A DNA stretch of 28,519 nt from a virus, in the IMG/VR virus record IMGVR_UViG_3300008266_001651, positions 1-28,519 of that record; one strand, written 5' to 3'. Below the pieces are notes generated by a model. That model ran no database searches, was not told the origin of the DNA, and worked only from the letters and a program-made list of their open reading frames with translations. Every line of letters starts with the position of its first letter. The stretch's first letter is position 1. Made by a program: the position numbers and the translations under genes. Positions 10,356-19,611 of the stretch are shown piece after piece.

Positions 10356-10826
10356 TCAACGACCCCCCCCTACCTCAACCACCTCACTCTCATTACTAGT
10401 CCAGTGACTTTGCGGAGAATGTTCAATCGCCTCAACAACTTGCGCTTCTATGGTCTCTGGTTGTGCCGCAGATGTGCCGATTTGCCGGCCCGCAAGCCAT
10501 CCAAGCTGCAGAACTATGCCGCCTTGGATGTCCTGATTGACTTGGATTGGAATGACCTTGCCAACCATGTTGGCGAAGATTTGGCGGTCTTGTATGCCTC
10601 CGTTGGCGCGGTCTATGAGCCAGCCAGCCAGGCCCTCTGCGTGGCAGTCCCTCGCGGCGATCTCAACAGCTTGCCGCAGGCTGATGGTCAGCGCGTTGGC
10701 CTTGCCCTTCTGACGGCCTTTCCGGTTGGTTCTTGGGTCGCCCTTGATGAATGGCTTGCCACGCAGCGGGTTGTCCTGCTTCTCGCCTGCAGTTTGCTGC
10801 ATGTCAGATTGCGCGTTACTCATCAT
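10356..10826 (-). CDS. Terminase small subunit candidate
   Basis: A 156-residue protein encoded directly before the large terminase. The N-terminal part has KPFIKGDPRTNRKGRQKG, the DUF5681-like signature common in DNA-binding and small-terminase-like phage proteins. A helical segment (TISLRQAVEIAARDC) follows. Small terminases recognise the packaging site and load the large subunit; here the role is inferred from position and signature. Two adjacent ATG codons are possible starts, and the first overlaps the stop of the upstream HNH gene. The last codons contain eight consecutive G, a slippage-prone run three codons before the stop. Confidence 0.72.
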   Translation of the reverse strand: MMSNAQSDMQQTAGEKQDNPLRGKPFIKGDPRTNRKGRQKGKANALTISLRQAVEIAARDCHAEGLAGWLIDRANGGIQDRQIFANMVGKVIPIQVNQDIQGGIVLQLGWLAGRQIGTSAAQPETIEAQVVEAIEHSPQSHWTSNESEVVEVGGGR

Positions 10827-11317
10827 TCTTGTCCTTCAAGATCGTCATCTGGATTGTCATCCGGGAAAGATTCGTACTGCAGCAAACGCCATTGAGCGTG
10901 CCTGACTCGCACCAGCAAATAGTTTGTCTTCTTCCTACGCGCTGCGATGACGCGCTGAAACTCTGGGCTCATCTCCGCGATCTCATCAGGAGCCCAAAGA
11001 CTGGCTTCTTTGTCGTAACGCTTGAGCAATGCTTGCTCAATGAACTGAGCGCGCTCTAACGCCCTGAAAAGCGGCCTGTTGCCCAACAACGAGTTGCAAT
11101 GCCTGCAAGCAGGCAACAGCACAAACCTCACGCCATGCTTTGCCCAAGCCTTTTTGTCCTGCGTTTCTACCCAAGACAACGGCGGTGCGTGGTCGAGCGT
11201 TTCCGCTGAGTCGCCGCAATAAAAGCACTCATGCCTGTTGACGCCATCGGCTGAATGCCATCTGTAGAGCTGGCCGTAGGTCTTAAAGAGGCGCTTACGT
11301 TCTGCTTTTAAGCTCAT
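10823..11317 (-). CDS. HNH endonuclease upstream of the small terminase
   Basis: This protein of about 164 residues has a treble-clef HNH layout: CFYCGDSAETLDHAPPLSW (about 32-50) supplies a CxxC pair and the DH catalytic pair, and LPACRHCNSLLGNRP supplies the second CxxC and the Asn. The rest is helical and basic. I chose the ATG at 11317 over an in-frame TTG three bases earlier. The stop overlaps the small terminase start (ATGA). HNH genes in this position are frequent in cos- and headful-packaging phages. Nicking near the packaging start or homing are both plausible. Confidence 0.8.
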   Translation of the reverse strand: MSLKAERKRLFKTYGQLYRWHSADGVNRHECFYCGDSAETLDHAPPLSWVETQDKKAWAKHGVRFVLLPACRHCNSLLGNRPLFRALERAQFIEQALLKRYDKEASLWAPDEIAEMSPEFQRVIAARRKKTNYLLVRVRHAQWRLLQYESFPDDNPDDDLEGQE

Positions 11318-11340
11318 CAATCAACATCGCTTTCATCAAG

Positions 11341-11469
11341 ACATCCGGACACCCCGGACATCCGGACATCCCGGACAAACCATAGGTTTTGTCCGTGTCC
11401 GTCCGGGTCGGACATGTCGCGGGACATGATGTCCGGCCAATGTCCGGGTAAATGTCCGGGCAAATGTCC
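11341..11469. repeat. Iteron-like array of GGACA / TGTCC repeats in opposed orientation
   Basis: The gap of about 160 bases downstream of the primase-helicase gene holds four GGACA units at 11347, 11356, 11364 and 11373 (8-9 base period). Four TGTCC units lie at 11430, 11441, 11453 and 11465 (11-12 base period) in the opposite orientation. Further copies at 11390, 11396, 11410 and 11422 lie between. The most common extended unit is ATGTCCGG. The arrangement resembles initiator or operator binding arrays. A minus-strand frame through it encodes only a GHLPGHLPGHWPD artefact of the repeats and is not called as a gene. Confidence 0.65.
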
Positions 11470-11480
11470 GGTTTTAGGCC

Positions 11481-13484
11481 TCATTGTCCAAGTCTCCTGA
11501 CAATCCCATCTGTACCAAGCGCAGCCAAAGCCTTTCCAGCCAGCGCCGACAGAGTCCGCTGCAGCGCCTTTCGAGCCGAGTCTTGTGTGTACTGCTTCCC
11601 CTGCTCGCGGCACTCACGCGCCACCGCATCATAAAAGGCATGCCTTAACGCAGCCTCAGGCGCTTGCCCACCAGCCGCCTCGAGCAGCCCCAACAGCGTC
11701 TTCTCATGCCCCGCAACCTTCACCGCATGAGCCGCGAGCACCTTCTGCGCCGCGTCGTTCCAGCAAGCCACAAGCGATGAATACTCTTCGCCATCCTCAT
11801 CCTGTCCGAGCACCACGCGCTTAAGCTCAAAGCCCTGCGAGCCCAGCCGGTCGCCGTCTTTCTGCTTCAGGAAGTCCAGCCGCGCCAGCAGCGCCCCAGC
11901 ATCAGGACGATACGCGCCCAGCATGAAATCCACGTTGGCCGTGATGGCGCTCGAGCCACGCGGACGCTCAGTGGCCGCATGTCCTGAGTGGTGAATAACG
12001 ATGACCGTGCAATGAAACCTGGCGCGAATACCCGCGTTCAGCAGCCGCAAATACCCCGCAATGTCAGTGGCTGAATTCTCGTCGCCCTCAAATGTTTGCG
12101 ACAGCGTATCTACATAAACCAGCGACGGCTTTTCAGGTAACGCCTCAATGGCCGATGCGAGCAATTCAACCTGTTCAGATAAGCTCAACACCAGCGGCGT
12201 AATACAGACGCGGAAAGACTCGCAAATACCTAAGCCACGCTCCTGATGCCACGCAGCCACGCGGCGATATATCCCCGCGCCGCCCTCCGCGGCCACATAG
12301 ACCACTGAGCCCTGCTTAGTCTTCCTGCCCAGCCACTGTAGCCCATGAGCTACATGCAACGCATGGTCGAGCGCCACAAAGGACTTGAACGTGCCGCTAG
12401 CGCCAAACAGCATGCCAATCGAGTCCGCAGGAATCACATGCTTGACCTGCCAGCGCACCGCAGCCGAACGGCGCTCAAGCTCAGGCAAGCTCAGCAGCAG
12501 CTCACCCGGCGCATCAGTCGAGGGCAAGTCAGAGCCCACCCGCAGCGTCACATTGACCGCAGGCCCGCGCTCAGGCGGCGCGAACTTCTCCGCACTCTTT
12601 ACCGCCCGCGGAATCTCCGCACGCCTCGCGGACCAGCGCGCAATCTCCTCCGCAGGGCCAGCGGGCCTGACCTGATCCATCAGGCTGTAGAGAAAGTCCA
12701 CCGCCGCGCCTGGGAACATCCCGCCCGCCACAAGGCTTGCAGCCATGCGCACGATCGCGTCGTGATAGGACCGCTCGCCCAAGGGCGCGGACATCATCTG
12801 CAGCGCCTCGCCGGCCACAGAGCCCATCGCAGAATGAGATTTCAGCGCTGTGTTGTTTTTTGACAACGTTACGGACTCGCGCACGCTGTCAAGATCAATT
12901 CCAACCGCTTCGCAGGCATCGGCCAGGTTCCAGCGCGTCTGTGGGAACCAGTCCGCGAGCTGATGCCGCCAAGGGCCCGCTGCCCTGGCCTTGGTGTTTA
13001 CGCCGATCGGCAGGCGCACATAGCGCACGATCGCATTGCCAGACTTGTCGTTGCCGAGCTGCCCCTGCGCCGACAGCCGATTCATCACGCGGTCGACCAA
13101 CTCAAGATTGGTGCAATCTGGATCATCTCTGTCTAGAAGGATTCCAACTTGCCACTTGCCTGGGCTCGTCTGCAGCGCCCACGAGTAACCCAAGATTTTG
13201 CTGGGGTCGACGTCATCGACCACAAGGGCTAGTAGTCGCTTGAACGTGCCCTTCTGCCGCGCCCACTGCCCCGACTCCGTGAAGCCAGATAGCAGTGAAA
13301 CCGAGAAATATGTATTGTCCGAACTACCTGCATCATCAATGAGTTGAGCTTGGCGCTCCGTGCCGCGGTAACTCCTACCGCCCCACTCGCCTTGTTCTGG
13401 CGAGGCTCGGAAGTTGCACACCCACAGGTACTCATCGTCGGCCAGGTGTCCTGACACCTCTGCCAAGAAATCGCTGTTCTGCAT
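11481..13484 (-). CDS. Primase-helicase fusion (RepB-like primase plus RepA-like helicase)
   Basis: A 667-residue replication protein. Residues 1-200 look like an archaeo-eukaryotic-type RepB-like primase, with VVDDVDP (about 88-94) as the acidic motif and YVRLPIGVNTK (155-165) as the conserved later motif. Residues 335-560 form a RepA/AAA_25-type hexameric helicase: Walker A GASGTFKS (361-368), Walker B LVYVDTLSQT (455-464) and IVIHHSGH (495-502). It would open and prime the phage origin. The start at 13484 is preferred because AGGAGG lies eight bases upstream; an ATG six codons earlier lacks this. It follows the Cro-like gene in the leftward transcript and ends beside the iteron-like array. 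Confidence 0.85.
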   Translation of the reverse strand: MQNSDFLAEVSGHLADDEYLWVCNFRASPEQGEWGGRSYRGTERQAQLIDDAGSSDNTYFSVSLLSGFTESGQWARQKGTFKRLLALVVDDVDPSKILGYSWALQTSPGKWQVGILLDRDDPDCTNLELVDRVMNRLSAQGQLGNDKSGNAIVRYVRLPIGVNTKARAAGPWRHQLADWFPQTRWNLADACEAVGIDLDSVRESVTLSKNNTALKSHSAMGSVAGEALQMMSAPLGERSYHDAIVRMAASLVAGGMFPGAAVDFLYSLMDQVRPAGPAEEIARWSARRAEIPRAVKSAEKFAPPERGPAVNVTLRVGSDLPSTDAPGELLLSLPELERRSAAVRWQVKHVIPADSIGMLFGASGTFKSFVALDHALHVAHGLQWLGRKTKQGSVVYVAAEGGAGIYRRVAAWHQERGLGICESFRVCITPLVLSLSEQVELLASAIEALPEKPSLVYVDTLSQTFEGDENSATDIAGYLRLLNAGIRARFHCTVIVIHHSGHAATERPRGSSAITANVDFMLGAYRPDAGALLARLDFLKQKDGDRLGSQGFELKRVVLGQDEDGEEYSSLVACWNDAAQKVLAAHAVKVAGHEKTLLGLLEAAGGQAPEAALRHAFYDAVARECREQGKQYTQDSARKALQRTLSALAGKALAALGTDGIVRRLGQ

Positions 13485-13511
13485 GACCGCTGCCTCCTGC
13501 ATGATGCGGCC

Positions 13512-16654: not shown

Positions 16655-17148
16655 TGCGTAAACGACCAGACCTTGCTGCTCGCAATCGAGCCAACGCTAG
16701 GCATGGAATGACTGGCAGTCGAACTCATCGAGTGTGGATTGCAATGATGAGTCGATGTCATGTGCCGTCTGCTAAGGCTTATGCCGCGTACGGTGCGAAG
16801 GGCATTTGCGTTTGCAATGAGTGGCACACCTTTGAAAACTTTTTGCGCGATATGGGTGAATGCCCAGACGGCATGACCGTAGATCGCGTTGACAACAGCA
16901 AAGGTTATGAGCGTGGCAACTGCCGATGGGCCACCTCCGTGGAGCAGGCAAACAATCGCAAGAGCAATGTGCTTGTCACATTCAACGGAGTCACTCAGTC
17001 CATTGCAAATTGGGCGCGTGAAACAGGGTTAGAACGTAAAACTTTGGAATACCGCATACGCGCTGGGTGGGAAGTTGCCCGTGCGTTGTGCAGCAAGCCA
17101 ATCATCAACAGGAAACAACATGGCATTCAATCTCGCATCAGTCTCTAA
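16651..17148 (+). CDS. HNH-type homing endonuclease, AP2-like class
   Basis: A protein of about 165 residues (two adjacent ATG starts). The pattern HGMTGSRTHRVWIAMMSRC, then YGAKGICVCNEWHTFENFL, the core MTVDRVDNSKGYERGNCRWA and NNRKSN is that of free-standing phage HNH/AP2-type endonucleases. The C-terminal part (VTQSIANWARETGLERKTLE, then GWEVARAL) is a DNA-binding helix-turn-helix. Its end runs 29 bases into the Sak4-like gene in another frame, and the region is more AT-rich than its surroundings; both fit a recent mobile insertion. Target unknown, presumably the recombination locus of related phages. Confidence 0.82.
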   Translation: MMRKRPDLAARNRANARHGMTGSRTHRVWIAMMSRCHVPSAKAYAAYGAKGICVCNEWHTFENFLRDMGECPDGMTVDRVDNSKGYERGNCRWATSVEQANNRKSNVLVTFNGVTQSIANWARETGLERKTLEYRIRAGWEVARALCSKPIINRKQHGIQSRISL

Positions 17149-17857
17149 ATCCCGCCGCAAAAGTGCCATCAAGGCAGTCATTAGCGGTGTTTCCAAGGTG
17201 GGCAAGTCATCAATGGCTGCTGATGCGCCAAAGCCCATATTTCTTCCGCTGGAGGACGGTCTTGCTGGCTTAGACGTTGATGCTTTCCCGCTCGCGTCCA
17301 GCATGGATGACGTTTACACAGCCATCGGTACGCTCATCAACGAGAAGCACGATTTCAAGACGCTTGTTATTGACAGCGCCGACTGGCTTGAGCCGTTGCT
17401 GCACGCATATGTGTGCCGTCAGCACAAGTGGGAATCTATTGAAACGCCTGGCTACGGTAAAGGCTACATGGCAGCAGCTACAGAGTGGAAGACCTTGCTT
17501 GACGGTCTGGAAACGCTGCGACGCGACTGCGATATGAACATCATCGTCATCTGCCACGTTAAGCAAACGCACATCGAAAGCCCGACGGCGGAAGGCTATG
17601 ACGCTTGGACGCTCAAGCTGCACACAAAGGCTTCTGCGCTTCTTGAGGAGTGGGCAGACATCATTGGTTTTGCCGCCCACAAGATTGCGGTGAAGAAGAC
17701 AGATGCTGGTTTTGGTCAAAAGGAAACTAAGGCGATTAAGACAGGCGAGCGTGTGTTGCACCTTGAAGCACATCCCGCTTACCCATCGGGCAATCGTTTT
17801 GGCCTGCGCGATTGCGCGTTGTCATGGGATGCTCTCGCGTCTCAATTGCAGGCTTGA
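17120..17857 (+). CDS. Sak4-like RecA-family ATPase (single-strand annealing/recombination)
   Basis: This 245-residue protein has Walker A GVSKVGKSS (23-31) and Walker B TLVIDSADWL, followed by CHVKQTHIESP in the sensor position, as in the AAA_24/Sak4 family of RecA-like phage recombinases. Downstream lie a DUF669 ssDNA-binding protein and a nuclease, its normal partners. It would assist annealing and strand exchange during replication and recombination of phage DNA. AGGAAACAAC precedes the ATG. The start lies inside the upstream HNH gene. It is more AT-rich than the genes that follow. Confidence 0.82.
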   Translation: MAFNLASVSKSRRKSAIKAVISGVSKVGKSSMAADAPKPIFLPLEDGLAGLDVDAFPLASSMDDVYTAIGTLINEKHDFKTLVIDSADWLEPLLHAYVCRQHKWESIETPGYGKGYMAAATEWKTLLDGLETLRRDCDMNIIVICHVKQTHIESPTAEGYDAWTLKLHTKASALLEEWADIIGFAAHKIAVKKTDAGFGQKETKAIKTGERVLHLEAHPAYPSGNRFGLRDCALSWDALASQLQA

Positions 17858-18450: not shown

Positions 18451-19611
18451 ATGAAACTTCCTGAATCCCAACACACCACCAGCGCTGCGATCGTCAAGTG
18501 GTACGAGAGCAAGCCGCAGGAGCACCGCCCGCACATGGGCGCGTCCATCATCGGCCACGAGTGCGAGCGCTACATCTGGAACACTTGGCGCTGGGTGCTC
18601 AAGGCCAGCTTCCCAGGCCGCATCCTGCGCCTGTTTAACTCAGGCGTGCGCGAAGAGACGCGGCTGATTGAGGAGCTGCGCGGCATCGGCGCGGAGGTCT
18701 GGGAGACAGACCCGGCCACAGGCGCGCAGTGGCGTGTGAGCGCGTGCAATGGGCACTTCGGCGGATCGCTGGACGGCGTGGCGCAGGGCTTGCCGGAAGC
18801 GCCTAAGACCGCCTGTGTGCTCGAGTTCAAGACGCACAACGACAAAAGCCACAAAGAACTGGTCGACAAGAAAGTGCAAGTCGCCAAGCCCCAGCACTAC
18901 GACCAGATGACGATCTACATGGGCCTGATGGAGCTGGACCGCGCCCTGTATATCGGAGTCAATAAAAACACCGACGACGTATATACAGAATGGGTGCATT
19001 TCGACGTCGAGCGCTTCAAGCACCTGATGCTCAAGGCGCAGCGTCTGATTGACGCGACCGAGCCCCCGCAGCGGCTGTCGTCAGACCCAGCCTATTGGCA
19101 ATGCAAGTTCTGTACATTCCACCCGGTTTGTCACGGCGACCGCGCCGCAGAGGCGAACTGCCGCACCTGCTGCCATGCCACGCCGGCCACCAAGGGCGAG
19201 TGGCGCTGTGAGGTCAAGGCCAAGACGCTAACTGAGCCAATGCAGAAATCTGGGTGTTCAGATCACCTGATGATTCCTGCGCTGGTGCCGTACGCCGAGC
19301 CGACTGACGGCGGCGACAACTACGTTATTTATCGGCACAAGGAATCCGGCAAGGAGTTTAGCAACGGCGCAGGCCCCGAGCCGCGCTTTAGCAGCCGCGA
19401 CCTCGAGCGCTGCCCTGGCGAGCTTTTGCCGGATGTGGCCGATGTGAAAGCCGCATTCCCCGGTGCAAAGCTCATCAGCGGCACTGCGTTTGACGACATG
19501 GAATCGGATGACCTGGACGCGGTGCCAACGAAGGGCGACACCAAGCAAGCCGCAGAGAAGCGCCAGCGCGTAACCAAGACGATGCAAGCGCTCAAGGAGT
19601 TCAAAGGATGA
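18451..19611 (+). CDS. Cas4/RecB-like PD-(D/E)XK exonuclease
   Basis: A 386-residue nuclease. The motifs are in order: SGVREETRLIEEL (catalytic-domain helix), GGSLDGVAQG with the metal-binding Asp, VLEFKTHND as the ExK motif, and KPQHYDQMTIYM as the Gln/Tyr motif. WQCKFCTFHPVCHG supplies three Cys that, with a Cys near residue 38, could hold an Fe-S cluster as in Cas4/AddB-type enzymes. The last 150 residues form a second part with its own Cys pairs and an acidic/Lys-rich end. With the ATPase and DUF669 protein it forms a phage recombination set. The stop overlaps the next ATG. Confidence 0.82.
   Translation: MKLPESQHTTSAAIVKWYESKPQEHRPHMGASIIGHECERYIWNTWRWVLKASFPGRILRLFNSGVREETRLIEELRGIGAEVWETDPATGAQWRVSACNGHFGGSLDGVAQGLPEAPKTACVLEFKTHNDKSHKELVDKKVQVAKPQHYDQMTIYMGLMELDRALYIGVNKNTDDVYTEWVHFDVERFKHLMLKAQRLIDATEPPQRLSSDPAYWQCKFCTFHPVCHGDRAAEANCRTCCHATPATKGEWRCEVKAKTLTEPMQKSGCSDHLMIPALVPYAEPTDGGDNYVIYRHKESGKEFSNGAGPEPRFSSRDLERCPGELLPDVADVKAAFPGAKLISGTAFDDMESDDLDAVPTKGDTKQAAEKRQRVTKTMQALKEFKG

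Follow-up and report, generated by a model that had tools for sequence, protein, structure and literature searches.

The array and its neighbouring genes

The window analysed here, 28,519 nucleotides in length, is a 28.5 kb virus record from IMG/VR. Within it, an array of short repeats lies between the packaging genes and a gene for a primase-helicase of 673 amino acids. The features of this region are as follows.

10356..10826, minus strand: probable small terminase subunit gene (terS), whose orthologues are 88-90% identical while the adjoining array type changes
10823..11320, minus strand: Endonuclease VII-like (HNH-type) gene, between the array and the terminase genes and outside the proposed origin
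11341..11489, no strand: whole array, with two opposed sets of iterons flanking a hairpin (13 copies of GGACA/TGTCC); proposed replication origin
11347..11377, plus strand: distal set of four GGACA with a period of 8-9 bp, facing the proximal set
11373..11394, no strand: central inverted repeat GGACA-AACCATAGGTT-TTGTCC; the minus strand reads CCTATGG
11390..11426, no strand: middle part with both iteron orientations, including a close pair beside the hairpin
11430..11469, minus (helicase-coding) strand: helicase-proximal set, four direct (C)CGGACAT with a period of 11-12 bp, at the same place in relatives
11481..13502, minus strand: primase-helicase, 673 aa, with a RepB-primase-like N-terminal part (weak), an RSF1010-RepA-type RecA core and a C-terminal winged helix
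11484..11738, minus strand: winged-helix domain (residues 589-673) by predicted fold; proposed iteron-binding domain

On the plus strand, GGACA starts at 11347, 11356, 11364 and 11373 (spacings 9, 8 and 9) and TGTCC at 11430, 11441, 11453 and 11465 (spacings 11, 12 and 12). Between these outer sets lie TGTCC at 11390 and 11396 and GGACA at 11410 and 11422, and an extra TGTCC at 11485 falls inside the final helicase codons. Counted on both strands, this amounts to 13 copies in 140 bp; GGACA is the most clustered 5-mer of the window, and the largest cluster in 300 dinucleotide-preserving shuffles of the whole window had 6 copies, a size reached once. The original prediction of opposed GGACA and TGTCC arrays with copies between them is thereby confirmed in its coordinates, as is their position directly behind the primase-helicase gene, whose 3' end (minus strand) abuts the array. 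That prediction had missed the central inverted repeat of the array, GGACAAACCATAGGTTTTGTCC (11373-11394). It had also placed the sites on one face of the helix, which fails at 10.5 bp per turn: with spacings of 8-9 and 11-12 bp the phase drifts through 0, 17, 69 and 120 degrees in the TGTCC set and through 0, 309, 223 and 171 degrees in the GGACA set, so that the sites do not share one face. The window array is without an AT-rich melting element, its interior not being AT-rich.

The primase-helicase contains an AAA_25 core (residues 343-509; Pfam E 6e-34). This RecA-fold core is homologous to RepA of RSF1010, both in a PDB profile match (1g8y, 7e-21) and in a structural comparison (VIA Z 22.1, rmsd 2.8 over 220 residues); a whole-protein fold search reached the helicase core region alone. 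The N-terminal match to RepB_primase is weak (E 0.035). The last 85 residues are predicted to adopt the H-E-H-H-E-E topology of a winged helix (pLDDT 84), with the winged helices of ORC (Z 9.4) and MecI (Z 9.1) as the closest folds, while Foldseek returned no match to this domain with E below 0.001. The predicted C-terminal winged helix would thus resemble those of origin recognition proteins. Within it, R-(xx)-F-Y and K-A-(xx)-R are conserved among the aligned helicases that have GGACA arrays. No RepC-like protein was found among the window genes scanned, which were part of the gene set. The recombination region of the same phage encodes a Sak4-like single-strand annealing ATPase near a Cas4-domain exonuclease (17075-17857 and 18451-19611).

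The array type follows the helicase C-terminus

Related helicases were collected in two scans of viral contigs, giving 16 and then 80 loci, partly overlapping, and were divided into relatives with a window-like C-terminus (type A) and relatives with another C-terminus (type B). After removal of near-duplicates, a GGACA array was present in 10 of the 10 distinct type A relatives and in none of the 37 of type B; the Fisher p of 2e-10 for this comparison ignores shared ancestry, and the weight of the argument rests on the recombinants described below. TGCAC or TGCG arrays accompany 25 of the 37 type B helicases, and the remaining 12 show no clear array. In many type B relatives, TGCAC, TGCGC or TCGCA repeats are opposed across a hairpin at the very position of the GGACA array. 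The array is therefore kept with the same C-terminus and changes in sequence when the C-terminus changes, which supports the candidate-origin reading first proposed for this locus; the suggested check for loss of the repeats among relatives with the same replication gene came out in its favour, every relative with the same C-terminus having retained the array.

The type A arrays share an anatomy, in which three to five direct GGACA copies are followed by a close pair, by GGACA-hairpin-TGTCC and by further inverted copies. The close pair is found again in divergent loci. In the central hairpin the stem letters vary with pairing mostly preserved, and the CC-TA-GG centre recurs across phages. Behind helicases with a window-like C-terminus the array usually lies 10-40 bp past the stop; more distant arrays were seen at 380-800 bp in two such loci and at 380-1540 bp in a few members. 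Five type B arrays (L057, L063, L087, L096 and L084) have, as a second hairpin, an imperfect one with a TGTANGGGGTGTGGGG-like stretch that recurs beside an iteron. Comparison of the gene region and array with phage records found no direct DNA similarity, and a protein scan of genome contigs gave no confirmed relatives.

Strand skew was a further check suggested for the origin. In the window, the cumulative A-T skew has a sharp minimum at 11605, 140 bp from the array, and the gene-strand switch lies at 13.75 kb. Of 18 array loci, however, 10 show a fall in A-T skew over the array and 10 a rise in G-C skew; a clear change at the array is limited to the window and its closest relatives, distant ones lacking it, and skew thus lends no consistent support across loci.

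Natural recombinants and other readings of the array

The best evidence comes from natural recombinants. Two pairs of phages, L029/L062 and L030/L070, share a primase part with 94-100% protein identity and 94% DNA identity; the homology breaks off near residue 310, and 91% DNA identity restarts just past the array, the helicase half, C-terminus and array having been exchanged as one. L029, with a GGACA array, and L062, with a TGCAC array, have primase domains 96-100% identical and small terminases 90% identical, whereas their helicase cores and C-termini are just 12-26% alike and their arrays are of different types. The exchange follows the same pattern in L030 and L070, with the same break region. 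The converse is seen in L060, whose N-terminal part is unrelated to that of the window and which retains the helicase core, the C-terminus and the GGACA array. Judged from these sequences, the unit of exchange is helicase core plus C-terminus plus array. Since the helicase half and the array are swapped while the primase and terS stay, the array belongs to the helicase and not to the terminase or the primase.

We weighed three other functions for the array against this evidence. It might be a regulatory site alone, through which the C-terminal domain controls its own operon or the late genes, with replication starting elsewhere. Iterons often act in autoregulation as well, and the array does lie between the replication and packaging genes. 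However, no promoter- or terminator-like site was matched at 11000-11800, and the array is found past the 3' end of the helicase gene whatever comes next, as in L004, where the next gene is on the opposite strand. We regard a purely regulatory role as unlikely; the operator for a late transcript, offered with the original prediction as the alternative to an origin, finds no support, as the array does not track the packaging genes.

That the array is a pac or cos site recognised by the small terminase is very improbable. Packaging sites are frequently at or near terS, and in this family a probable terS lies 40-1700 bp downstream, immediately after the array in L016 and L017. A packaging site should stay with its terS, yet terS genes 88-90% identical adjoin GGACA in one phage and TGCAC or TGCG in another, and it is this independent exchange of the array that leads us to reject the reading. 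Moreover, the distance to terS varies while most arrays start no more than about 40 bp from the helicase stop, none of the family contigs examined has an end at the array, and helicase-linked arrays occur without this terminase nearby in plasmids, in a satellite-like record and in L019. A role in the helicase transcript, as a 3'-terminal RNA structure or a terminator, is also very unlikely: folding of the strand far exceeds that of shuffled sequences (z of -6.3 for RNA and -6.8 for DNA), but such folding is unavoidable for inverted iterons, there is no T run, some relatives have separate terminator-like hairpins after the array, the order of iteron orientations varies among loci (L098, L099 and L160) and some phages have an extra gene between the helicase and the array.

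The idea of a primase-recognition hairpin, like the ssi sites of RSF1010, was also considered. It is weakened by the recombinants, in which the primase half stays and the hairpin changes, and by the occurrence of the CC-TA-GG hairpin with RepB-like, Prim-Pol and TOPRIM-annotated proteins alike.

Recurrence of the layout in unrelated replicons

An unbiased search started from the repeats. Three spaced GGACAT were found at 74 loci in viral contigs, and 29 of these follow an AAA_25 helicase gene, at up to 600 bp and mostly within 210 bp of its 3' end, although several of the 29 helicases are nearly identical and represent fewer independent cases. The reversed pattern gave 12 loci, none of them behind an AAA_25 helicase. 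A search for GGACA-CCCTWWAGGG-TGTCC retrieved 26 loci, of which 16 follow an AAA_25 helicase and a seventeenth does so according to Pfam.

For generality, RepA-type helicases of phages, plasmids and satellites were picked by protein similarity alone. In most of them a similar array layout follows the gene directly, with a repeat particular to each: GGTACA in Idiomarinaceae phage 1N2-2, GGTTCA in Alteromonas PB15, GGGGACA in Salicola CGphi29, GCGGAGAT in Rhizobium N65, CGCAACA in a Methylobacterium plasmid and TGCGGCA in a Klebsiella plasmid of 17 kb that carries a capsid gene; others have GTGACA, TGCGGAAG or GGACA. Of 22 phage and plasmid records not selected for repeats, 15 have the strongest repeat cluster of their locus just behind the helicase stop; like the 12 type B loci above, the other seven show no clear array there, and the link between helicase and array is not universal. 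Hairpins centred on CC-TA-GG, with a stem of 5 or more, lie no further than 450 bp from the stop in 10 of 23 records, against 0.09 expected, and away from helicase stops there was one in 117 kb. The helicases of 1N2-2 and PB15 are 66% identical and their hairpin cores nearly so, while their iterons differ by one base throughout (GGTACA versus GGTTCA), a concerted change as expected from coevolution of a binding domain and its site.

Several other loci deserve mention. A pattern scan of genome contigs gave mostly weak matches of 3-5 copies, which were left out of the origin counts; a clear match was in Blastochloris sulfoviridis (L195:5411-5730), where an AAA_25 helicase is followed by a two-cluster GGACA array, a candidate with a cultured host. 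Strong GGACA arrays also occur within other open reading frames (L105:2598-3770, L107:413-1618, L134:9780-10760 and L139:454-1434), the first encoding a DUF1376 protein and the other three matching no Pfam family; these are perhaps initiator genes with the origin inside. At L021:1370-1520, five direct GGACA copies immediately precede a promoter-like stretch and terminase genes, in a locus without an AAA_25 helicase that does not fit the helicase rule. An E. coli O145 plasmid (L295:3200-3720) has the end of a RepA-type helicase and a AAAAGTGAGG array in a satellite-like element with a capsid gene; this helicase end and array are found in 632 of 5426 E. coli genomes, 802 of the 803 places being chromosomal. 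The Klebsiella plasmid with the TGCGGCA array, pKp_Goe_795-4 (L297; circular, 16,971 bp), carries a RepA-type helicase and a capsid gene and may be a circular satellite instead of a plasmid.

Comparison with known origins

Phage P4 alpha differs from the window protein in its TOPRIM-type primase, its other helicase and its unrelated repeats. The two are alike in that P4 alpha/ori/crr also relies on a single protein with primase, helicase and a winged-helix domain that binds short repeats (PMC4234260).

A close likeness in organisation is to the PICI and SaPI modules, such as SaPI Rep and EcCICFT073, which also have an initiator helicase, sometimes fused to a primase, and an origin with two iteron sets immediately 3' of the initiator gene (PMC6092414, PMC7581432); in the window, too, the array begins at the helicase stop. 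PICI origins of this kind are functional as plasmid origins, and the pri-rep-ori module of EcCICFT073 replicates as a plasmid (PMC6092414). SaPI Rep and Cch2 bind the iterons just behind their own genes through the C-terminal domain (PMC7581432), a recognition for which co-inheritance and the winged-helix prediction suggest a counterpart in the window. Unlike these modules, the window has a helicase of the RecA-fold RepA/AAA_25 type, with a layout found in phages, plasmids and satellites, and its centre is a CC-TA-GG hairpin where that of PICIs is an AT-rich stretch. Because its opposed sets flank a hairpin and its interior is not AT-rich, we do not class the window array as a member of the PICI/SaPI type; its organisation is best read as PICI-like, apart from the other helicase class and the hairpin at its centre.

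The SCCmec Cch2 origin likewise has direct repeats just behind the helicase gene with inverted repeats alongside, and binding of the repeats by the isolated C-terminal domain of Cch2 has been demonstrated biochemically; it differs in having another helicase, a separate primase and three AAGTG iterons (PMC7581432). The oriV of RSF1010 (IncQ) resembles the window in combining iterons with hairpin elements, and RepA of this plasmid is the closest solved homologue of the helicase core (PMC4434180, PMC4234260). In RSF1010, however, iteron binding falls to a separate protein, RepC, and recognition of the ssi hairpins to RepB', whereas in the window one protein would carry all the parts, and the window-type hairpin travels with the helicase, not with the primase. 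Finally, pRN1 has a prim-pol and helicase protein with a C-terminal winged helix and an essential, long stem-loop just behind the gene; its authors also pointed out a stem-loop in phage BIP-1 (PMC4234260). It differs from the window, with its RepA-type core and iterons, in having an SF3 helicase and no iterons.

Proposed mechanism and implications

What the sequences themselves show is the array and its conservation, the way it is inherited together with the helicase half, and the recurrence of its layout in unrelated replicons. We consider it highly probable that the array is the replication origin of the phage and that the adjoining primase-helicase is its initiator, with the C-terminal winged helix binding the GGACA iterons. 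From binding through hairpin melting to origin activity, we infer the following steps. The C-terminal winged helix of the RepA-type helicase would bind the GGACA iterons, and, with two iteron sets opposed, a pair of helicase rings would come to lie around the CC-TA-GG hairpin at the centre. The duplex would be opened or extruded at the hairpin, which would serve as the opening or loading site, and the attached primase would synthesise the first primers. The precedents of SaPI Rep/Cch2, the PICIs and pRN1 make these steps plausible.

Beyond this phage, we tentatively suggest, as a possibility somewhat short of an even chance, that RepA-type (AAA_25) helicases with variable winged-helix C-termini are widespread self-recruiting phage initiators. 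Each would use its own iteron 'password' around a shared CC-TA-GG hairpin, whatever the primase, and helicase and origin would be swapped as a cassette, perhaps in escape from satellites or defences that exploit the origin. We found no paper on the origins of AAA_25/RepA-type phage helicases in the open-licence literature.

Origins are unknown for most phages, uncultured ones above all. Our results suggest that a close analogue of the PICI-type origin, with an unrelated helicase, is common in phages. If correct, this would allow the origin of any phage, plasmid or satellite that encodes a RepA-type helicase to be located directly beyond the stop codon of the helicase gene, and the C-terminal domains with their cognate iterons would form a natural series of protein-DNA specificities.
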